64,000 nucleotides of DNA from Polyangiaceae bacterium. Its GTDB lineage: Bacteria > Myxococcota_A > Polyangia > Polyangiales > Polyangiaceae. The DNA is taken from NCBI GenBank assembly GCA_019637265.1, contig JAHBVY010000001.1, forward strand, positions 1,364,001 through 1,428,000, written 5' to 3'. The notes beneath the pieces are model-generated. The model saw only the letters and a program-made list of their open reading frames with translations, ran no database searches and was not told the origin of the DNA. Below, piece after piece: positions 7,661-62,255 of this stretch. Both the position numbers and the translations under genes were made by a program. Each line of letters starts with the position of its first letter. The first letter of the stretch is position 1.

Positions 7661-7857
7661 GAGACCACCACCCGCGAGCCGCCCTCCGCCACCCGGGTGC
7701 GCGCTCACGGTGCGCCTCCAGGCCGTGCTCGTGGTGGCACCACCCCTACCCTTCGCGCGCTGGAGCACCGCCGCGCGCTGCTCGTCAGCCCTGGGCTGCG
7801 GAGGTGAGCACTGCGCGCTCGCCACGCGCCCTGCCGCTGCCTAGCGCTCGGCCACAC

Positions 7858-9299
7858 CTAGCGCTCGGCCACGCGCGGCGCGAGCGGCGTCAGGTCGATG
7901 CCCGCCATCGACTTCAACACCCGGCTGAGCTCGAGATCACTGCGCGTCTCTGCCACCTGGAAACCCGTGAGCAGCTCTTGGACGTCGCTCTGACGATCGC
8001 GCACCTGGCTCGACCCAAGCGCCCGTGGACCCAACGGTTCGAGGGTTTGGGGGTTTGGCGTGGCGCTGGACGCCGAGCGCGGGGCGACGATGGGCGCCAG
8101 CATGGAGGCCACGCTCGGCTCCGCTCGTGGCTCTCGTGATGGCGCCGAGCGGGGCGCCTCACCAGGCGTGTGAAGGCTCGCGCCCAGCTGCTCTGAGTCA
8201 GCTCTACTGCTCATCTGGCGGGGGCTGAAGTCAGCTTCACTGTGCATCTGAGGCGGCTCGAAGTCGGCTTCACTGTCTACCTGGAGCTCGAAGCCGCCCG
8301 CGCCCTCGAAGCCCTGCGCCAGCTCCGCCACGGGCACGCGCTCCGTGGCGTCGCCGTCCGCGAGCAGCAGGCCGTCGATGGGTGACTCCACCTCCGCGAA
8401 GGCGAGCGCCTCACGCTCACGGCGCCGCGCGACGGCGGGCTGTTGACAGGTGAGCTCATCATCCGTGGCGGCGAACGTCGGTACCCGCGGCGCGCGCGGC
8501 ACCTCGGGCGCCCACAGCACGTCGGGCGGCGGCGGCGCAGGGTCCGTCTGCGCGAGATCGGTGCGCGGGGTGTCGCCGCGGAGATCGCTGGGCGGCACCT
8601 CGCTCCGCCGTGGGTCGCTGCGCGGCGCATCACTTCGTGGCGCATCACTTCGCGGCGCGGGCGAAACCGCGTGGCTCTGTAGAGCGCGGGGCGCGCGGTG
8701 TGACGCCTGGTCGCGCGCGCGCATCGTGGCGTCACCCCGCCGGTTCCAAGCTGGCGCCTCCGTCACGTCCGCCACCCGTGGAGACGCCACGCGCTGCGGC
8801 CGCTCGAGGGCCGGCGCGCGCGGCGCCACACGCCCCTCGGCCGCGTGACCCTGAACCGGCGCCACGCGACCTGGCTCCGCGTTCGCCTCCGCGAGGCTCG
8901 GCAACGCCGCGCTCACCTCTCGACTCAGCCGCGACAGCGCGCGCCGCGCGGCCGCGCGGTTCACCGGGATGAGCCCGGCCTCCAGCTCACGCACCAGCTC
9001 CGCCACGCCGCCCGAGCGCCGCGTCGCGCGCAGCAACGCGGGGGGTAGCGGGCGCGACACCCCGAGCAGCTCGCCCAGGTAGGTGCGGAGCAGCTCCCCG
9101 CAGCGCTCGCTCTCACACGCCGCGCCGCGCCCGACGCTCACCTCACCGCGCTCGTCCAGCGTGAGGTCCGCCGCCTCGAAGCCGCGCGGCGCCTTGAGCA
9201 GCTGATCGGCCGCCGCCAGGATCAAATACCCCGCTACCTCGCCCGCCACTGAAGCGCGCCGCGCCTCCGCCGCCAAGATGATCTGCGAAAGGTTGACCG

Positions 9300-12241: not shown

Positions 12242-13510
12242 ATGCAGCGCGCGCCCTCCCCCCGAGTCCCTGCCGCAGCGCTCCGCCTTGAGCAGGCGCG
12301 CGTCGCTGGTGGCGCCGAGCGCGGCGTGAGTCGAGCTGCCCATCGCCTCATCGGCGCGGTCTGCCGGCTCCGGAGCGAGCCACTGCGCGTCGCCGTGCCC
12401 CTGCTCATCGCCTGCGCCTACGCCACCCCGGCGCAGGCGGGCGATCCGGCGGTCGCCACTCGAGTGGTGATCGAGGGTGCGCGGAGCGCGCCCGCGGGGC
12501 TCACCCAGAGCGCGTTGCCAGCGCGGTTCAAAGCGGTCGCGGAGGCGCGCGTCGAGGGCAGCATCCTGCCAGCGCCCGTCGCCGACCGCGCGGGCAAGCT
12601 GCTGGTGGTGACGAGCACGCGGCACCTGCTCCAGCTGGGCCAAGACGGTGCGCTCGAATGGAGCCGCACCCTACCAGGCTTCCCCACTTCGAGCGTCGTC
12701 GTCACCAGCGACGGCACCCGCGTGATCGCCACCAGCGAGGGCCTGTTCGGAGTCGACGCGAGCGGCGAGGAGCGCTTCTTGGCGCGCTCATTCGCCAACC
12801 CGCGCCCCGTCCAGCTGGTCGCGTTACCTGACGGGAGCCTGGCGCTCAACTTGGTGCATCAGGTGTTCAAGGTATCGCCGCGGGGCAGGCTGCTCGACCG
12901 CGCGAGCTTCAACACCGCGGTGGCGGAGGTGGTGCGGGGTGAGGGTCAGCTCCTGATCGCCCTGGGTAACACCGTCTACGGCTGGCGCCCGCCCGCGCCC
13001 CCACGCAAGCTGACGACGTTACCCACGGCCGTGAGGGGCCTCACCCCACGGGGGCGACAGCTGTTCGCGCTGGGCGGCGCCGGGACGACGCGGACGGAGC
13101 TGTTCGAGATCGATCTACCGACCTCCACCCATCACCGACGCTGGGAGCTCGAGGGTGTCCACGTCACCCGCTACGCGGTGCTGCCCAACCAAGCGACCTT
13201 GAGCATCGCCGCGGCGGGGCTCCTGGTGCACCACGACAAGGAAGGCAGCGAGCGCTCGCGGAGCGTCCCGGTGCCCGTCACCGGGACGGGGCCCGTCGTA
13301 GCCCCCCTCGTGCTGATCGACGCGAGCGGCAGGCTCGCGTTCGCGAGCGATGGCACCGGGATCGGCGTGGTGCGCCCCGGCGGCGCCACGACGCGCCAGG
13401 ACGAGCTGAGCTGCCCAAGCTACGCCGGCCTGGTCGAGCTCGGCCCCGATCGCTACGCCCTGGTGTGCAGCAGCGGCCTGGTCCGCTTCCTGCGCGGCGA
13501 GCGACGCTAG
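12242..13510 (+). CDS. Exported beta-propeller protein
   Basis: 422 aa. After a basic N-terminal stretch, a signal-like hydrophobic segment (VAVPLLIACAYATPAQA, about residues 45-62) is followed by repeated PQQ/WD-like blades such as GKLLVVTSTRHLLQLGQDGALEW and GTRVIATSEGLFGVDASGEER. The start, ATG 12242, lies 2 bp after the stop of the zinc-ribbon gene, so the two are co-translated. A single-blade family name cannot be given. An extracytoplasmic scaffold or a BamB-like role is possible but not shown. Confidence 0.75.
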   Translation: MQRAPSPRVPAAALRLEQARVAGGAERGVSRAAHRLIGAVCRLRSEPLRVAVPLLIACAYATPAQAGDPAVATRVVIEGARSAPAGLTQSALPARFKAVAEARVEGSILPAPVADRAGKLLVVTSTRHLLQLGQDGALEWSRTLPGFPTSSVVVTSDGTRVIATSEGLFGVDASGEERFLARSFANPRPVQLVALPDGSLALNLVHQVFKVSPRGRLLDRASFNTAVAEVVRGEGQLLIALGNTVYGWRPPAPPRKLTTLPTAVRGLTPRGRQLFALGGAGTTRTELFEIDLPTSTHHRRWELEGVHVTRYAVLPNQATLSIAAAGLLVHHDKEGSERSRSVPVPVTGTGPVVAPLVLIDASGRLAFASDGTGIGVVRPGGATTRQDELSCPSYAGLVELGPDRYALVCSSGLVRFLRGERR

Positions 13511-13680
13511 CCCATGCGTCAGCCAAGGTGACGCTCGGCGCTCGCACTTCGTCAGTTTGAGGGATGCCCGGCGCTCGGCGGTATCTCGTCAGCTAAGCTG
13601 ACATACAGCGCTCGACGGCATTTCGTCAGCTAAGGTGACGCACGGCGCTCGACGCACTTCGTCAGTAACGCTGACTTGCG
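13511..13680. repeat. About 36-bp repeat array with GTCAG/CTGAC inverted repeats
   Basis: Four to five degenerate units, each with TTCGTCAG, a short spacer, then GTGACG or CTGAC, then GGCGCTCGACG. One core is GTCAGCTAAGCTGAC, an almost perfect palindrome. The first unit begins in the last codons of the propeller gene (GGCGAGCGACGCTAG). It lies between convergent genes. A CCAAACCCCCAA motif follows at about 13720. Confidence 0.8.
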
Positions 13681-13802
13681 CCCCCCGCGTCACCTGGCGC
13701 GGCGCTTGACAGTGCGCTGCCAAACCCCCAACCCTCCTCGCGCCTCTACGAAGAGCCAACCCTCCCGAAGCGCCGAGGCGCTCGCGGAGGCCAACGGTCG
13801 GC

Positions 13803-14571: not shown

Positions 14572-15450
14572 ATGGCCTACAGCAACCCTGAAGTCTCCCG
14601 ATACATCAGCATGGCTCAGTCGATCCCCAAGCTGACCCGCGAGGAAGAGGTGGCGCTGGCCAACGCCTGGTTGACCCAAGAGGACCAGGCGGCGGCCGAT
14701 CAGCTGCTCACCGCGCACCTCCGCTACGTGGTTGCGATCGCCCTCAAGTACCGCCGCTACGGCCTCCCCATGGGCGACCTGATCGCGGAGGGGAACTTCG
14801 GGATGGTCCACGCCCTGAGCAAGTTCGAGCCGGCGCGGGGCAACCGTTTCGTCACCTACGCTGCCTATTGGATCCGCGCGTACATCCTCAACTACATCAT
14901 CCGCTCCTGGAGCCTGGTGGGCGTTGGGTCCGGCGCGCTCCGCTCCAAGATGTTCTTCAAGCTGCGCCGTGAGCGCGTGCGCGTGACGAACCTGCTCGGC
15001 GAAGGCGAGGCGGCGGACCAGGCGCTGGCGGAGCAGTTCGGCGTGACTCAGACGCAGCTGCGGTCGATGTTGCGGCGCCTGGAGTCGCGCGATCTGTCGC
15101 TCGACACCAAGGTGTTCGACGACTCGGGCGCCACCCTGCTCGACACCCTCGTCTCCGAGGACCTCGATCAGCAAGCGGTCGACGATCACGAGGTGGAGGC
15201 GCTCCGGCGCAGCGCGGTGGAGGAGGCGGTGAAGGTGCTCGACCCGCGTGAGCGCTTCATCGTGGAGGAGCGGTTGATGGCGCACCAGGAGGACGAGCTT
15301 TCCCTCGCGGAAATTGGCCGGCGCCTGGGCGTCAGCCGTGAGCGCGCGCGGCAGCTCGAGGCGCGCGCCAAGAAGAAGCTGAAGGCGCAGATCGTGGAGC
15401 TCTCACGGGCGCGCGGCTACGACCCGATCGAGCTCGACTCCGCAGCTTGA
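14572..15450 (+). CDS. rpoH: RNA polymerase sigma factor, RpoH (sigma-32) type
   Basis: 292 aa alternative sigma factor of the heat-shock subgroup. Region 1.2/2.1 starts at SIPKLTREEEVALANAW; region 2 has LIAEGNFGMVHALSKFEP and RFVTYAAYWIRAYILNYIIRS (region 2.4, in part). The RpoH-box equivalent is RSKMFFKLRRER, shared by RpoH proteins. Region 4.2 is SLAEIGRRLGVSRERARQLE. Likely targets are chaperone and protease genes; clpS-clpA lie in the same window but not adjacent. AAGG lies 9-12 bases before the ATG. Its last codons are the start of a repeat array that continues towards rnpB. Confidence 0.93.
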   Translation: MAYSNPEVSRYISMAQSIPKLTREEEVALANAWLTQEDQAAADQLLTAHLRYVVAIALKYRRYGLPMGDLIAEGNFGMVHALSKFEPARGNRFVTYAAYWIRAYILNYIIRSWSLVGVGSGALRSKMFFKLRRERVRVTNLLGEGEAADQALAEQFGVTQTQLRSMLRRLESRDLSLDTKVFDDSGATLLDTLVSEDLDQQAVDDHEVEALRRSAVEEAVKVLDPRERFIVEERLMAHQEDELSLAEIGRRLGVSRERARQLEARAKKKLKAQIVELSRARGYDPIELDSAA

Positions 15451-15520
15451 AGCGCATGCCGCTCGAGGCGCACGCTGCTTGAAGCGCATGCTGCTCGAGG
15501 CGCACGCTGCTTGAAGAGCG
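15443..15520. repeat. 32-bp tandem repeat spanning the rpoH stop codon
   Basis: Two units that match at about 30 of 32 positions (15443-15474 and 15475-15506) plus a partial third. Each starts GCNGCTTGAAGCGCATG. In the first unit these bases are the last two sense codons and the TGA of rpoH. Confidence 0.85.
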
Positions 15521-15555: not shown

Positions 15556-15950
15556 CGCGCTGTTGCGGCGCAGGAGGTCGCCGGGGGCGCGTCGTCCACG
15601 TGGTGGGCGGCGCCTCTCGGAGGAAAGTCCGGGCTCCACAGGGCAGAGCGCCAGGTAACGCCTGGTGGGGGTGACCCCGAGGAAAGTGCCACAGAAAACA
15701 CACCGCCAGGCAGCGCCTGGTAAGGTTGAAATGGTGGGGTAAGAGCCCACCGCGTGGGCGGTGACGCGCACGGCTAGGTAAACCCCGCTCGGAGCAAGGC
15801 CAAATAGAGGAGCGCTCGAGGGCTGCCCGCCCAAGCTCCCGGGTAGGCTGCTGGAGGGCCTCGGTGACGGGGCTCGTAGAGGAATGATCTCCAGCGGCGT
15901 CGGGGCGACCCGGCGCCGACACAGAACCCGGCTTACGCACCCAACAGCCA
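15556..15950 (+). ncRNA. rnpB: RNase P RNA (class A)
   Basis: Catalytic RNA of RNase P, which matures tRNA 5' ends. Recognised by the conserved blocks GAGGAAAGTCCGGGCTCC (5' domain), GCCAGGTAACGCCTGG, GTAAGAGCCCACCGC, GTAAACCCC, CGGAGCAAGGCCAAATAG, CCGGGTAGGCTGCT and ACAGAACCCGGCTTAC. The ends are set by a P1 helix pairing GCTGTTG (15559-15565) with CAACAGC (15942-15948). Length near 390 nt is normal. Any reading frames across it are spurious. Confidence 0.97.
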
Positions 15951-24696: not shown

Positions 24697-25983
24697 ATGC
24701 TCGGCCCAAGCTTACATCGGCAGCCCGCGGTTCAGGTGAGGCGGGGTGCTACCCCGTCCGCCGGCCTCCTCTCCATCCTCGCCGCGGGGCTCTTCGCGGG
24801 CGCTTGCTTCAAGTCCTTGGATGAGTCGCTCCTCGACGGCGCGAGCGGCGCCGGCGCGGGGGCGACGGGCGGGCTCGCGGGGACGGGCGGCGCCGCGGGC
24901 AGCGCGGGGGTGGGCGGCGGCGGAGCGGCCGGTGGAGGTGCCGGGGGTACCGGCGGCATCTTGGAGGACGCCGGCCCCGACGTGAACGACGCCAGCGACG
25001 CGGAGACGCCCATTCAGGTGCTGCCCCACGACCCAGCGCGGTTCCCGGCGACGTCCATCGCCGGAGCCACTGGTAACTCCCTGATCAGCGTCGACGGCAG
25101 CTTCGCCTACTACATCCTGGCCGACACCTCGACCCAGACGCCCACCAAGGTGCCCCTCACCGGCGGTAGCGGCGCCGCGGCGGGGGGTGATGCGCTCGAC
25201 AACGCGTCGTACATCCTCGGCCCACCCCAGAGCCTGTTCCTCTACCTGGGGGTCGGTAATCAGGCCACGGAGGACGGCCGCATCGTGCGCTTCTTCAAGG
25301 AGCCCGAGAGCACCAACCCCGCGGTAGAGCTCACCCACGCGCACCGCATGGGCCGCGTCACGGCGATGGTAGCGACCACCTCCGCGCCGTTTTACCTGTT
25401 CGCCGTCGCCAAGACGGCCGGGCCCGGTCAGCCACACATCCTGCGCGCCGACATGGCCGGTGGCGGCAGCCAGCTGGAGGCCATCTACACCGACCCCACC
25501 GGCAACCGGACCGGCGGCGCCCTGGTCGCGCAGCGCGGCTGCGTCTACTGGACCACCAATGGTGGGGTCTACACCGTGCCCTACGCCGGCGGCGATCGAG
25601 CGGCGGCGCTGGCCACCCAGGTGAGCGACGCCACCAGCCTGGCCAGCGACGGCACGCGCCTGTTCGTCGCCCGCGCCGACGGGAGCATTTGGCAGCGCCC
25701 GCTGCTCGGCGCGAGCTGCGATGGGAGCGGTCCCCCGGAGCAGCGGATCTTGAGCGGGTTCACGGGCGCGACGGAGCTGGTGTCGTACGCGCGGCGCCTG
25801 GCCTTCATCGCCAGTGACTCGGAGCTCGGCGAAGGCGGTGTGTTCAGCTACGACTTGGACGCGCGGGTGGTGGAGCAGGCGGTGCCCGCCAGCGTCAACG
25901 CGAGGCTGCTGCGGCACAGCGGGCCGCGCCTCGTGTACCGCACCTCGAGCGGCACGATCGCACGGGTGCCTGACGGCACCTGA
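24697..25983 (+). CDS. Lipoprotein with Gly-rich linker and beta-propeller-like domain
   Basis: 428 aa. The signal ends in the lipobox FAGAC (around residue 37). A Gly/Ala/Thr low-complexity linker of about 45 residues follows (residues 50-90), then blades typical of an irregular propeller (GCVYWTTNGGVYTVPYAGG; GTRLFVARADGSIWQRPL; DGSFAYYILADTST). The function is unknown; such proteins are abundant in Polyangiales. Starts 45 bp from the divergent TPR gene. The gene end is repeated downstream (25956-26165). Confidence 0.8.
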   Translation: MLGPSLHRQPAVQVRRGATPSAGLLSILAAGLFAGACFKSLDESLLDGASGAGAGATGGLAGTGGAAGSAGVGGGGAAGGGAGGTGGILEDAGPDVNDASDAETPIQVLPHDPARFPATSIAGATGNSLISVDGSFAYYILADTSTQTPTKVPLTGGSGAAAGGDALDNASYILGPPQSLFLYLGVGNQATEDGRIVRFFKEPESTNPAVELTHAHRMGRVTAMVATTSAPFYLFAVAKTAGPGQPHILRADMAGGGSQLEAIYTDPTGNRTGGALVAQRGCVYWTTNGGVYTVPYAGGDRAAALATQVSDATSLASDGTRLFVARADGSIWQRPLLGASCDGSGPPEQRILSGFTGATELVSYARRLAFIASDSELGEGGVFSYDLDARVVEQAVPASVNARLLRHSGPRLVYRTSSGTIARVPDGT

Positions 25984-26165
25984 TCGCGCGGGTGGCTGAC
26001 GGCTCGCGGGGTGACGGGAGGCACCTGGCACGTGGTGAGAGCGCCTCACGGCTCACGCGGTGCAATCGCCGGTACGGCTGGCTGACGATTCGGGGCGGAC
26101 CGATACGGCTAACTGACGAGTCGTGCAGCGCACGGGCGCCTGACGGCTCACGCCACCGCGCCCAA
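25956..26165. repeat. Repeats of the gene 3' end, with CTGACGGC cores
   Basis: The last 25 bases before the stop (25956-25980) recur at 25982-26007 with 21 of 25 matches, and partly again near 26126-26155 (GCACGGGCGCCTGACGGC). Between them are more CTGACG cores (GGCTGACGATTCGG, CTAACTGACGAGTC). The stretch lies between convergent genes. Confidence 0.75.
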
Positions 26166-40542: not shown

Positions 40543-41150
40543 CAGCCGCTGCGCCGCCGCCCGCGCCTCGTCAGCCGCGCGCCTCGGTCGCCGCTTACAA
40601 GGCGGCGCTCCGCACCGCCACGCGCCGCAACGCCGCCGAGCCGGAGATCAACTTCCTCAACATCACCGCGATGCTGGACATCATGACCATCATCCTGGTG
40701 TTCCTGCTGAAGAGCCTCGGGGAGTCGAGCGCCTCCATCCCCCAGTCAGACGACCTCACGTTGCCGGTCACCACGCGCAACACGCCCCCTTCGGAGGAGG
40801 GCGTCGTCATCACCATCTCGAAGACGCTGCTCATGGTGGACGACAAGCAGGTCCTCACCCTGCCGAGCCGCGACTCCCAAGTGCAGTCGGGGGTCGGGGC
40901 GCGCCACAAGCGCAAGGGGCCGAACGACCTGTACATCGCCCCCCTCGGAGGCATCCTCCAGCAGGCTCGTAAGCTGGACCAGGCGGTGCGGGACGCCAAG
41001 AAGCTCGACCGGAACGCCCCCTCGGAGGCGATCATCGTGGCCGATGCCAGCACCCCCTTCCGCACCCTGAGCGAGGTCCTCTTCACCCTCGGTCAGAGCG
41101 AGTTCGGGCAGTTTCACCTGATGGTGATGCAGGGCAAGCCGGAGCAATAG
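40539..41150 (+). CDS. ExbD/TolR-family protein (cluster 2, second)
   Basis: 203 aa. Helix EINFLNITAMLDIMTIILVFLL places the conserved Asp one turn later in an otherwise typical context. Periplasmic part with MVDDKQVLTLPSRD and IIVADASTPFRTLSEVLFTLG. ATGA overlap with the preceding exbD. Its last codons (AAGCCGGAGCAATAG) are echoed in the repeats downstream. Confidence 0.9.
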   Translation: MTAAAPPPAPRQPRASVAAYKAALRTATRRNAAEPEINFLNITAMLDIMTIILVFLLKSLGESSASIPQSDDLTLPVTTRNTPPSEEGVVITISKTLLMVDDKQVLTLPSRDSQVQSGVGARHKRKGPNDLYIAPLGGILQQARKLDQAVRDAKKLDRNAPSEAIIVADASTPFRTLSEVLFTLGQSEFGQFHLMVMQGKPEQ

Positions 41151-41200
41151 TTAGGGGGGACACCCGGCCAAGCCGAGTCAGAAGCGGGACACCCAGCCAA
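41131..41200. repeat. Repeats starting in the exbD stop region
   Basis: AAGCCGGAGCAATAG at the gene end, AAGCCGAGTCAGAAG and AAGCCCAGCCGG follow at about 30-bp steps, and each is preceded by GGCC or AGCC; the first two are followed by GGGACACCC. Confidence 0.65.
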
Positions 41201-41497
41201 GCCCAGCCGGGTCGGAAACAGAGCTGAGCCGGAGCACGCTTCACGGTTGCCGCCGCTCGAATCCTCATGCTACGGTGGCCTGCGCCTGCTGCAGAGCCCT
41301 AGGGACTGGTTCTTCGGCCGCACCTCACCGCTGGAGCGTGTGCGGGGGCGGCTCGCGGCTCACACCACGAGCTTCGGGGCATGACCCAGGCGCACAGACT
41401 CACGGTCCGCCCGCTGGGGCGCGTGGGTCGATGGCCCTCGGGGTTGGTGTGACTCCCGACCTCCGAGGATGAATCGACGCCTCCGGTAGTTCGCGTT
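41151..41497. other. Intergenic region before the pseudo-pyrophosphatase gene
   Basis: No gene supported beyond the repeats at its start. The remainder is GC-rich and shows no terminator with T-run; AGCCGGAGCACGC near 41228 is another faint echo of the exbD end. Confidence 0.45.
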
Positions 41498-47442: not shown

Positions 47443-47940
47443 TCAGATGTCGCCGACTGGCTGCTGGCAGCCCGCGCCCACGTCGTAACCGCAGGGGCCA
47501 TCCAGCGTGACGCAGCAGGGCGTGCCCGAGCCGCTGTTGGGGCAGAACGCCGGGTTGCAGGTCCCGGTGCTGCCGCCCGCGCCGCTACCACCGGCGCCGC
47601 TGCCGCCAGCACCGCTGCCGCCTGCGCCCACGCCGCCGGTAGCGCCGCTGCCGCCTGCGCCACTGCCACCCGTTGCTCCGGTAGCGCCCGTCGCACCGTT
47701 GCCACCCGTGGCCCCAGTCGCGCCCGTGGCACCGGTGGCACCCGTCGCGCCAGTGGCTCCTGTTGCACCCGTGGCGCCGGTACCACCCGTACCGCCAGTT
47801 CCTGCGGTGCCGCCTTTACCGCCGGTACCGCCGTTCTCATCGAACACACCGTCTTCGCTGCCAGCGCAGGCAGTGATGACGAGGCTCGAGATGCTGAAGA
47901 CCAAGGTGAGCAAGGTGAGGCGAGAAGAGCTGGTTCGCAC
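47443..47940 (-). CDS. Lipoprotein with collagen-like Gly-Ala-Thr repeat
   Basis: 165 aa. Signal peptide [21 protein letters not shown] with lipobox ITAC near residue 23, then Gly-X-Y triplets dominated by Gly-Ala-Thr (about residues 38-125) that turn into Gly-Ala-Gly-Gly-Ser units, and a small C-terminal domain with six Cys ([17 protein letters not shown]). The GTG start is decided by a perfect GAGGAGG five bases upstream; the long in-frame extension lacks support. Surface or stalk role possible. Ends in a strong terminator. Confidence 0.8.
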
Positions 47941-52479: not shown

Positions 52480-52573
52480 GGAGCACTGACGCACGCTGCC
52501 CCCATGATGTGCTCAGAGGCACTGACGTACGCCGCCCCGATGATGTGCTCAGGGGCGCTGACGTGCTCGACGC
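52480..52573. repeat. 36-bp repeat between mrdA and rodA
   Basis: On the minus strand two full units, GTCAGNGCCNCTGAGCACAT onwards, plus a partial third; all carry CTGAC/GTCAG. The mrdA end itself (GTCGGTGCCGTGAGC, stop TGA) resembles the unit start. Confidence 0.8.
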
Positions 52574-54490
52574 TCACGGCACCGACCCCTGCTCGCGGCG
52601 CGAAGAGGTGCGCTCGGAGAGCCGCGCCTCGCGCAGGTTCTGCCAGGCTTGGACGATGCGCATCGCGACCGGCACGGCGGCCTTACCACCGGCCCCACCG
52701 TGCTCGATGAGCACCACCACCGCGATCTCCGGTGAGCGGCTGGGGGCGTAGCCGGCGAACCACGCGTGATCGCGGTTGAAGTACCAGACCTTGTCTGGGT
52801 CCACGCCCTGCGGGGTGCTGCGGCTCACCTGGGCGGTGCCGGTCTTGCCGGCGACGTCCACGCCCGCGATGCGCTCGGCGAAGGCGGTGCCCTCGCGCTC
52901 CGTCACCACGCCGGTGAGGCCACGCTGGATCCAGCCGACGTGCTCGGCGTCCACGCTCACCAGGCGGCGCACCCGCGGCGGGAACTCCTGCACGATGGTG
53001 CCGTCGCTGGTCTCGATGCTGCGCACCACCTGCGGCTGGTACAGCGTGCCGCCGTTCGCGAGCGCGCCGTACGCCAGCGCGAGCTGGAGGATGCTCACGG
53101 TGGACGCCCCCTGCCCGATGGCGCTGAGCAGGGTGAAGCCACCGCGGAAGGCGCCCGCGTAGTGCCGCGTGTACCAAGCGCGTGTCGGCATGCGGCCGCG
53201 CGTCTCGGGGTTGATGCCGATGCCGGTCTTCACGCCGAAGCCGTAGTCCATGCCCACGGCGCTCAGGCGATCGATGTGGATCCGCTCACCCAGCTCGTAG
53301 AAGTAGGTGTTGCACGAGCGCACGAGCGCCTCGTGCAGCTGCACGTTGCGGTGGATGCCCGTGCAGCGGAAATACCTCCGGCCGTACTCGTAGCCGCCGC
53401 GGCAGTCGACCACCGAGCGCCTGGAGATGAGCTTGTCCGCGAGCCCGGCCAGCGCGGCGAAGGGCTTGAAGGTGGAGCCGGGCGGGTAAGCAGCGGACAC
53501 CGTCTTGTCGAGGGTGGGCTTCAGCGGGTCGCTGTAGAGCTTGCGGAAGTTGTCTTGAACGACCTTCTTCCCCATTGAGCCGCTCACCAGGTTCGGGTCG
53601 TAGCTCGGCTTCGACAGCGCCGCGAGGATGCGCCCGGTGCGCACGTCCACCACCGCCACGGCGCCCGCGACGTGGCCGCGCATGGCGCGCTCGATGGCGG
53701 CCATCAGCTCGATGTCGATGGTCAGGGAGATGTCCCGACCAGGCACGGGATCGAGCCGACGCGGCTCATCCAGGTATTGCTCCTCGAGCTCCTCGCGGTT
53801 GGTCATCGCCTGACGCCCGCGGAGCACCTTACGCCAGCCGCGCTGACCTTTGAGGTAGCTCTCCCAGCGCCGCTCCACCCCCACCGCGCCGATGCGATCC
53901 CCCGCGCGGTAACCGTGACCCTCGAGGCGCGCGAGGATCTCTGGATCCACCTCGCGCATGTAGCCGAGCAAGTGCGCCGCCAGCTCCCCGTGGGGGTAGT
54001 AGCGGACGGGGACGGGCGTCACCTCCACCCCCGTGAGCTCGCGCTCGTGGGTCTTGAGCGCCGCGACCACGTCGCGTGACACGTCCACCTTGAGCAGCGT
54101 CTGCTGCTCGCGGCGGCGGCCGCCGCGCAGCGCCCGGATGTCCTCCGCGAGCTCGTTCGCCTCCACGGCGGGGAGGCCCATCAGCTCCACCACCCGCGGC
54201 CAGGTCTTCTCCAGATCGATCACGGCGGGGACGACGTGCACGTTGTAGGAGGGGCGGTTACCCGCCAGCACCCGACCGTGGGCGTCGCGGATCACGCCGC
54301 GACTGGTGGCGAGCCGCTGCTCGTTCACGATGTTGCGGAGCGCCTGCGAGCGGTGCACGTCGTGCTCGACGATCTGCAGCTGCACCAGGCGTCCGATGAG
54401 GAACAGGAACACGAACAGGACGAACAGCACCATCCAGCTGTAGCGGCGGCGGAACTCACCGACGTCGGAGCGCTGCACCAGGATGCTCAC
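52574..54490 (-). CDS. mrdA: Penicillin-binding protein 2 (peptidoglycan transpeptidase)
   Basis: 638 aa class B PBP of the elongasome. Short cytoplasmic tail, one transmembrane helix (MVLFVLFVFLFLIGRLVQL, about 20-40), PBP dimerisation domain with RGVIRDAHGRVLAGN, and the transpeptidase domain with S339-TFK, SCN at 392-394 and KTGT at 549. GTG start overlapping the mreD stop (GTGA, 54487-54490), so translation is coupled. Confidence 0.97.
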   Translation of the reverse strand: MSILVQRSDVGEFRRRYSWMVLFVLFVFLFLIGRLVQLQIVEHDVHRSQALRNIVNEQRLATSRGVIRDAHGRVLAGNRPSYNVHVVPAVIDLEKTWPRVVELMGLPAVEANELAEDIRALRGGRRREQQTLLKVDVSRDVVAALKTHERELTGVEVTPVPVRYYPHGELAAHLLGYMREVDPEILARLEGHGYRAGDRIGAVGVERRWESYLKGQRGWRKVLRGRQAMTNREELEEQYLDEPRRLDPVPGRDISLTIDIELMAAIERAMRGHVAGAVAVVDVRTGRILAALSKPSYDPNLVSGSMGKKVVQDNFRKLYSDPLKPTLDKTVSAAYPPGSTFKPFAALAGLADKLISRRSVVDCRGGYEYGRRYFRCTGIHRNVQLHEALVRSCNTYFYELGERIHIDRLSAVGMDYGFGVKTGIGINPETRGRMPTRAWYTRHYAGAFRGGFTLLSAIGQGASTVSILQLALAYGALANGGTLYQPQVVRSIETSDGTIVQEFPPRVRRLVSVDAEHVGWIQRGLTGVVTEREGTAFAERIAGVDVAGKTGTAQVSRSTPQGVDPDKVWYFNRDHAWFAGYAPSRSPEIAVVVLIEHGGAGGKAAVPVAMRIVQAWQNLREARLSERTSSRREQGSVP

Positions 54491-60071: not shown

Positions 60072-60938
60072 CTAGCTCGACTCGGGCTCCGGTTCCGGCG
60101 GCTGACCAAAGCCGTCGAAGGTGGGCGCGGGCTCCACCGGGCGTCGGCGCACCGAGCGCGCGAGCCACAACCCCACGCCGAACAGCAGCAGGCACAGCCA
60201 CTGCGCCGGCGTGAGCTCGAAGTAGCGGTTGTCGCTGATCGCCACGTCACGCGCTCGGAAGAAATCCAGCACGAAGCGCACCGGGGCGTAGAGCAGCGCG
60301 AAGCGGCTCAGGTAGAAGCCCCACGGGCGTGGCTCCCGACGCCACCAGAGGAACAGCAGCGCGAGCGGGATGGTCAGCACCATCTCGGTGAGGCCGAGAT
60401 CCACCCGGGCGCCGCCTGGGTATTGCACCGCGTACCACGCGTCCGAGAGCACCCCCGGGTGATCGTGCGCCACCGCGCACCCAGCGCGCCCGAACACCCA
60501 GCCCGCCGGGAACGAGCTGCACACGACGTCTCCATACGGGAGCATCGAGCGCTTGTAACGGAGCTGCCACGCGAAGGCGCCGATCACCGCGCCCATGAAG
60601 CCGCCGAAGCTCGACAGCCCATTCCACACCATGAAGAGCGACAGCGGGTTCTCCACCACGCGCTCCGGGAAGTAAAACAAGGTGTCGAAGAAGTGGCCGC
60701 CGAAGAAGCCCACCGCCAACACCCAAAAGCAGAACGACGTGAACGCCGCCGGGTTGAAGCCCAGGCGCCGCGCCTGCCGCACCGCGAGGTAACTCCCGAG
60801 CCCCACCCCCATCGCCACCAGCGCCCCGAAGGGCTTGATCGAAAGATCCACGGGCGGCACCCCACCCCCGAAGAAATCCCGCGGGATGAGCGTCAGATCG
60901 GCGATCTCGACGTAAGGGATTCGGGGAGCAGAAGACAT
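60072..60938 (-). CDS. lgt: Prolipoprotein diacylglyceryl transferase-like protein
   Basis: 288 aa, seven or so transmembrane helices. The Lgt layout is visible: NGLSSFGGFMGAVIG (family GGMS.HGG..G) and GRAGCAVAHDHPG (family GR..N/CF..GE..G), with R and the last G conserved. Differences: Phe replaces the His of HGG, and the ARVDLGLTEM segment replaces RHPTQLYE. Many lipoproteins in the window need a working Lgt, but this may be a diverged paralogue. Start 60938 preferred over an earlier in-frame Met. Confidence 0.75.
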   Translation of the reverse strand: MSSAPRIPYVEIADLTLIPRDFFGGGVPPVDLSIKPFGALVAMGVGLGSYLAVRQARRLGFNPAAFTSFCFWVLAVGFFGGHFFDTLFYFPERVVENPLSLFMVWNGLSSFGGFMGAVIGAFAWQLRYKRSMLPYGDVVCSSFPAGWVFGRAGCAVAHDHPGVLSDAWYAVQYPGGARVDLGLTEMVLTIPLALLFLWWRREPRPWGFYLSRFALLYAPVRFVLDFFRARDVAISDNRYFELTPAQWLCLLLFGVGLWLARSVRRRPVEPAPTFDGFGQPPEPEPESS

Positions 60939-60997: not shown

Positions 60998-61140
60998 CCG
61001 CCGCCTACTCAGGGACCTCGACGTGGCGACCGAGCGCCTTCGATGCCGCTGCCTACTCAGGGACGGCTCGATCGGGGGGTCGGACGGGTAGTCTTCGGAG
61101 CGCGCCCAACGACAGCGCTGCCTACTCAGGGACCTCGATC
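60998..61140. repeat. Three copies of a gene 3' end, each with the stop codon
   Basis: On the minus strand GTCCCTGAGTAGGCAGCG occurs at 61115-61140 (the true end of the 377-aa gene, TAG at 61122-61124), at 61045-61073 and, as GTCCCTGAGTAGGCGGCG, at 60998-61023. Each copy also keeps the preceding TCGAG bases. Confidence 0.9.
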
Positions 61141-62255
61141 TCTGAAGCCGGCGCGGGGCGGATCACGACGTGGTCCTCCGCGAGATCATCCTCCGCGGCG
61201 ATCAGCTCGAGCAGGACCCCCTCACACTGGCGTCGGATCAGCACCGCGCCCACCGCCTCGCGTCCGCAGCGCACCTCCGGCAGCCGGCGCTCGATGATCT
61301 GCGAGGAGAGCTGCACCACCCGCGCGATGGCCTCCACCCGAGCTAGGGCGTCAGTCTGACCAACCGGGGTGAGGCTGAGCGCCTCCCCCAACCGATCGAA
61401 CAGCCGCGGGCCGGTGAGCCTGGCCTCGACCAGGAGCCCGCCTTCGAGCCGCAGGCTCACGTCGAACACCGCGCTCCGCGCGCGCAGGCGCTTGCCCGCC
61501 GGGATCACGTACTCCAAGTTGAGGAGCTTGGTGCACGTATCCGCGCGGCAACGCGCGGGGGGATCCTCCGCGCGCCAGGCCCTGAGCCACTCACCCGAGA
61601 GCTCGCTCGTGCGCTGGCCGAAGCTCGAGAGCTCGCTCAGGAGCCGGAGCCAGCGTGAATACTCGCGGATCAAGCGCTCGCGCCCCGCCTCCGCCTGGCT
61701 GAGCTTGCTGGCCAGGGCCGCCGCCTCGGCGTCGAGGCGCGCGGCGCGGCGGCGCTCGACCTCGCGCACCCGCGCGAGGACCGCTAGGCGCTCCCGCGCC
61801 GCCTCGGCGTGAGGGCCGCGCGGGAGCAGCTCGAGGTAGCGGCGGAGGCCCCGCTCACCGCCGCTCATCCGCTGGTAGTAGCCGGGCTCCGCCGCCGCGA
61901 AGCGCCGCCGGAGATCCTCCGCATAGGCGCCGTCCGGGTAGCGCTCGAGGTAGTCCGTGATCGCCACCAAGCGCCCCTCCAGCTCGGGCGTGGCGCGCGC
62001 CACGCGGTAACTGTGAAACTCCTCCGGTGAGGTCGTGAGCTGCAGCCCGACGCCGCCGCAGCCGAGCAGCGTGGCCAAGAGAGCGCCTAAAGCGGTGAGG
62101 CGCAGCGCAGCTCCGCGCCCAGTGAAGGTGAACGCGGCCGCGCAGAGCACTGCGGCCACGCCGCGCGACCCAGCGACACAGAGCGCCGGCGCGCGCGCGC
62201 GCCCGGCGTGCGGTGAGCTGAGCCGGCTCACCCACCCTCCGGACAGAAGTCGCAC
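61122..62255 (-). CDS. Lipoprotein, helical (TPR-like), unknown function
   Basis: 377 aa as read from the first ATG. A hydrophobic stretch with lipobox LLATLLGC (near residue 66) suggests that translation starts later, for example at the GTG at 62159. After the Cys come Tyr/Arg-rich helices (LVAITDYLERYPDGAYAEDLRR, AAARERLAVLARVREVERRRA) and a mixed C-terminal domain with a CRADTC motif. Not recognised. The first ATG overlaps the Cys-rich gene by 28 bp. Confidence 0.7.
   Translation of the reverse strand: MRLLSGGWVSRLSSPHAGRARAPALCVAGSRGVAAVLCAAAFTFTGRGAALRLTALGALLATLLGCGGVGLQLTTSPEEFHSYRVARATPELEGRLVAITDYLERYPDGAYAEDLRRRFAAAEPGYYQRMSGGERGLRRYLELLPRGPHAEAARERLAVLARVREVERRRAARLDAEAAALASKLSQAEAGRERLIREYSRWLRLLSELSSFGQRTSELSGEWLRAWRAEDPPARCRADTCTKLLNLEYVIPAGKRLRARSAVFDVSLRLEGGLLVEARLTGPRLFDRLGEALSLTPVGQTDALARVEAIARVVQLSSQIIERRLPEVRCGREAVGAVLIRRQCEGVLLELIAAEDDLAEDHVVIRPAPASEIEVPE

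Follow-up and report, generated by a model that had tools for sequence, protein, structure and literature searches.

Why should the spacer behind a gene carry copies of that gene's own last bases, stop codon included? The question arises at positions 60998-61140 of the 64,000-nucleotide stretch of a Polyangiaceae genome analysed here (the window), where the end of one gene and its TAG had been noticed three times in succession. The gene concerned (61122-62150 on the minus strand, TAG at 61122-61124, our own gene call) terminates in ...TCGAGGTCCCTGAG-TAG; a Pfam search with the open frame 61122-62255 gave no match, and the next gene downstream, on the same strand, is lgt (60072-60938, gene call, Pfam LGT). 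The array has the form (TCGAG)GTCCCTGAGTAGGC, three times over, with all copies on the minus strand. Copy 1 (61116-61138, block TCGAGGTCCCTGAGTAGGCRGCG) consists of the gene's own last bases, the stop codon and 6 nt past it. GTCCCTGAGTAGGC(A/G)GCG recurs at 61047-61064 as copy 2 (GTCCCTGAGTAGGCAGCG, a shortened block whose preceding part differs) and again at 60999-61021 as copy 3 (TCGAGGTCCCTGAGTAGGCGGCG), there preceded by TCGAG. Alignment of the last 30 nt of the gene with its own spacer gave P ~0.0002 against dinucleotide shuffles of the downstream region, and the three copies of the gene end with its TAG are accordingly real. Between copies 1 and 2 lies a dispersed 26-mer, motif A' (61067-61092, minus strand), and copy 2 begins directly after the end of this motif.

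The sequence-only reading had reported five further gene ends laid out in this way, with arrays that start inside coding sequence. This holds for two of them, which reach into the coding sequence, and fails for the other three, whose arrays are intergenic. Behind rpoH (stop at 15450), an array at 15441-15516 on the plus strand is built on a 32-nt tandem unit that takes in the TGA. The last 30 nt of rpoH alone do not match the spacer significantly (P 0.32, dinucleotide shuffles); we count the case as real because the unit already begins within the coding sequence, ~10 nt from its end, and continues past the stop at a 95% match. At the gene end at 25983 (plus strand, 25964-26147), a partial copy of the last bases lies ~165 nt downstream (P 0.0002 by the same test), and the copied piece ends just before the true stop codon, so that the stop itself was not copied. 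The array behind the propeller gene (13517-13675, plus strand, in a convergent spacer) comprises about five GTCAG-N5-CTGAC-like units and contains no copy of the coding end at 13510 (P 0.38 against the downstream spacer). The array behind exbD (41151-41235, plus strand) is made of GGGACACCC-GCCAAGCC repeats, and its resemblance to the coding end at 41150 is limited to a 10-nt match that leaves out the stop (P 0.03), which does not support a copied gene end. The array behind mrdA (52483-52564, minus strand) is a 36-nt tandem unit with no copy of the coding end at 52574 (P 0.75). One case had been overlooked: the TAG at 7858 is spanned by a direct duplication of 17 nt (7840-7872, minus strand), in which GTGGCCGAGCGCTAG is directly repeated (P 0.003).

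The arrays had also been described as private to their loci, which is true of most of their sequences, but some hold elements dispersed across the genome. A genome search with the 61122 array found other places only for the motif A' region and none for the repeat unit. Motif A' (ACTACCCGTCCGACCCCCCGATCGAG, also GACTACCCGTCCAACCCCCCGATCGAGC) has 19 genomic occurrences when up to 3 mismatches are allowed and resembles the commoner motif A, which consists of GCGGTGCCGTCYAACCCCC and an A/C-rich tail and is found in 326 places here, in 2 in a relative from the same genus and in none of the 39 other family genomes searched. Motif A is almost exclusively intergenic, its conservation stops within ~6 nt upstream, and it shows neither an orientation preference relative to genes nor flanking target duplications; given the even orientation, a role as promoter or terminator was rejected. 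Motif B (CTGCCAAACCCCC with an A/C-rich tail), present at 13708-13727 of the window and genome-wide (~50 places in 1.2 Mb), is possibly a relative of motif A.

Following the check proposed with the sequence-only reading, we aligned gene ends with the bases that follow them. The analysis covered 2.77 Mb of this genome, where a codon-usage gene finder called 2021 genes (~85% coding); the calls are our own and their start positions approximate, which affects the control at gene starts more than the ends. At an alignment score of at least 26, 45 of the 1340 gene ends with a downstream spacer of at least 60 nt (3.4%) matched that spacer, compared with 7 of 4020 permuted gene ends (0.17%), 62 of 4020 in-gene positions (1.5%) and 13 of 1474 gene starts aligned with their upstream spacers (0.9%). 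The 3.9-fold excess of ends over starts (Fisher P ~3e-6) recurs among blocks that cross the gene boundary (55/1340 ends vs 16/1474 starts, Fisher P 2e-7); a first pass had covered 1.2 Mb. The copies are in direct orientation: no reverse-complemented gene end reached a score of 28, and direct repeats far outnumber inverted ones. Positions in the interior of spacers matched at twice the rate of gene ends (64/926, 6.9%).

The distribution of local direct repeats along genes is graded. Their cover is ~2% inside genes, climbs from ~25 nt before the stop and amounts to 8-9% beyond +20, whereas at gene starts it stays at 1-2% to ~20 nt upstream and attains 5% only after 70-80 nt; the arrays therefore enter the last bases of genes and avoid starts. 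Among the stop-crossing blocks, 12 of 49 end 0-2 nt past the stop, against 7.6 expected from uniform placement, a small surplus that gives little sign of a break point bound to the stop codon. Since spacer interiors match at twice the gene-end rate and the surplus at stops is small, the process is not specific to stop codons; it affects intergenic DNA generally, and gene ends form its margin, not its target. The original suggestion of a genome-wide process of tandem duplication around stop codons thus stands as to the existence of the process, which tandem duplication fits, but not as to stops being its focus. The distances between copies show no significant frame preference (23/13/19 for lag mod 0/1/2), and an origin of the copies as remnants of in-frame coding repeats was rejected on that ground. 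At 47569-47833 the window has a dense array that looks collagen-like, its periods being 9, 18, 27 and 36 nt; no gene was called in this region, and missed genes of such a type add lags in multiples of 3 to naive counts of intergenic repeats.

Comparison of the copies and of related genomes bears on how the arrays arose. Among the 55 crossing cases, the copies are adjacent in 20, and 10 more have clearly alignable spacers. The stretches that follow copy 1 and copy 2 are alike well beyond chance (similarity 22.1 vs 13.8, standard deviation 0.67; none of 300 permutations as high), a residual likeness such as would be expected of decayed longer tandem units; non-adjacent crossing cases that lack alignable spacers could have another origin. 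Interruption can be seen at C1:547539, where an array is broken by a GTAG-type palindrome. The rpoH TAG of Sorangium cellulosum So ce26 is spanned by an exact tandem duplication of 20 bp, which is absent from So0008-312, So ceGT47, So0157-2 and one Sorangium MAG (loci L179, L180, L182 and L183), so that the duplication is polarised; this direct comparison speaks for tandem duplication. So ceGT47 has a separate repeat array of its own in the post-rpoH spacer, another Polyangiaceae MAG (L170) carries a 38-nt duplication across the rpoH TGA, and two Polyangium genomes show trinucleotide expansions in this spacer. Across several Polyangiaceae loci, the post-rpoH spacer has lineage-specific duplications of 3, 20, ~27-31 and 38 nt; in the window, RNase P RNA (15562-15949) follows close behind rpoH. 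The relatives' loci yielded 2 of 111 gene ends with a score of at least 26, a biased rate given that the loci were picked around rpoH and both ends are those of rpoH.

We consider it likely (probability of about 75%) that frequent short tandem duplications, kept where proteins and promoters stay intact and later interrupted by insertions, account for the copies. Tandem duplications of ~15-100 bp would arise often in this genome, and those within intergenic DNA, or straddling its edge, would survive because proteins are left unaltered and so, behind genes, are promoters. When the unit straddles a stop, copy 1 would still terminate the gene and leave the protein the same, with the last bases and the stop duplicated downstream. 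More duplications, indels and inserted dispersed elements would afterwards push the copies apart and degrade them, hence the interspersed appearance of most. At 61122, the unit would have been duplicated twice and motif A' would have come to lie between copies 1 and 2, the order of these events being what we infer from the present arrangement. The mechanism is presumably replication slippage or template switching, with end joining as another possibility; this genome has a Ku gene, as do about half of its relatives.

Two other explanations are improbable on the counts. Selection might retain the copies because they supply a second stop or act as repeated units of transcription termination, as had been suggested from the sequence; the stop triplet is kept in the copy in 43 of the 49 stop-including blocks, and arrays and short hairpins alike are richest in convergent spacers (9.9 hairpins per kb, vs 4.6 in divergent ones). 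Retention of the triplet is, however, expected once blocks are picked for similarity, the copied stop shows no preference for the gene's own frame (17/11/15 for lag mod 0/1/2), spacer interiors, which are free of stops, are more repetitive than gene ends, and an Rfam search of the window yielded RNase P RNA as the only element, so that selection for such units is unsupported and very improbable. Target-site duplication around inserted short elements is suggested by the 61122 array itself, with motif A' between two copies and the second abutting it. Yet flanking direct repeats (score of at least 24) were found at 2 of 81 occurrences of motif A, 3 of 14 of motif A' and 0 of 49 of motif B, compared with 7.8% of random intergenic points, and the lengths of units and spacers vary widely. 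On these genome-wide counts, direct repeats do not flank the elements more than they flank random points; we rejected this origin for motifs A, A' and B and give it hardly any weight.

A different possibility is that gene 3' ends are active hot spots, through transcription termination, read-through or head-on collision of transcription (at convergent genes) and replication, in which case the bias would be mutational and would not reflect tolerance. The frequency of local repeats in spacers of 100-300 nt does scale with the number of gene ends that border the spacer: 59 of 195 convergent, 74 of 477 co-directional and 10 of 158 divergent spacers contain them, an order kept when spacers with dispersed motifs are left out (28/93, 44/332 and 8/127, respectively). 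Moreover, even at least 100 nt from starts, the repeat cover of divergent spacers is only 2.3%, vs 7% and 15% in the other two classes, and shielding of the nearest promoter does not by itself account for so low a content. Against a hot spot, the density of the unrelated dispersed motif A follows the same order (0.88, 0.46 and 0.24 per kb in convergent, co-directional and divergent spacers), as would be expected if these spacers simply tolerate insertions, and the comparison is biased given that spacers with little regulation can become long mainly through expansion. For these two reasons, we favour tolerance over a 3'-end hot spot, which we regard as unlikely, although the present data do not firmly tell the two apart.

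The finding is ordinary in kind, and its density in this lineage is unusual. Two Azospirillum replicons of the same GC content (0.69) gave 1 of 186 gene ends, and none of their 113 spacers of 100-400 nt had a local repeat, compared with 184 of 1002 in this genome; for the gene ends alone (45/1340 vs 1/186), P is 0.036. High GC content as the sole cause was rejected on this comparison. Loci of other genomes, mostly Desulfobacterota, gave 0 of 264 gene ends, and a search of the literature on intergenic tandem repeats in myxobacteria found nothing on such gene-end duplications. Short tandem duplications and VNTR-like intergenic repeats of bacteria are local, head-to-tail and private to a locus, with copy numbers that vary between related genomes. 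The arrays described here share all these features; they differ in being much denser than in the comparator of the same GC content and in that a fraction start inside the end of the coding sequence, so that the stop is copied. The TAACTGA direct repeats of Beggiatoaceae are likewise intergenic and may share bases with the stop of the gene ahead of them (PMC4679880), but they are a single heptamer used genome-wide, mostly just upstream of starts, whereas the arrays of this genome differ in sequence from one another and avoid starts. The REP elements tagged with GTAG/CGTC are found chiefly behind coding regions, in convergent and co-directional spacers (PMC3733652), a placement seen here as well, and a GTAG-headed palindrome occurs in 70 places of this genome. 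Unlike REPs, which share a single sequence genome-wide, the gene-end copies do not, the 61122 repeat unit included, and no Y1_Tnp transposase was found in this genome.

The palindrome in question (GTAGGGGCGGGTTTCAAACCCGCCCCTAC, for example at C1:547419-547447, 70 places at up to 3 mismatches) is REP-like in form; a search of this genome for the Y1_Tnp transposase gave no match, and mobilisation by a REP transposase was rejected accordingly. A further dispersed sequence, GTCAG-N5-CTGAC, has a gap of 5 in 89 intergenic and 83 genic matches, vs at most 7 and 22 for any other gap from 0 to 12; it is thus enriched inside genes too, and by spacer class it is present in 46 convergent, 22 co-directional and 0 divergent spacers. 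Exact GTCAGYNNNRCTGAC occurs 148 times in the genome, vs 14 for the reversed pattern and 0-7 in relatives. An RNA hairpin was rejected for this sequence: its gap has a fixed length of 5, and the innermost bases are frequently C and A, which do not pair, so that a DNA site is likelier, and the sequence looks like a site bound by a dimer. A tentative and rather doubtful extension is that gene 3' ends carry species-specific DNA sites, above all GTCAG-N5-CTGAC, which may be bound by a putative dimeric protein acting in convergent spacers, such as a roadblock to transcription from both sides or a chromosome organiser, and which local duplication would multiply.

The gene ends of this genome show, in measured form, how duplication of a general kind can mimic a signal: a copied stop codon seems to serve a purpose, yet it reflects which duplications do no harm. 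The dispersed motif and the palindrome are leads of their own, open to direct testing, and comparison of the convergent, co-directional and divergent spacers of this lineage could serve to tell mutational hot spots from relaxed constraint.
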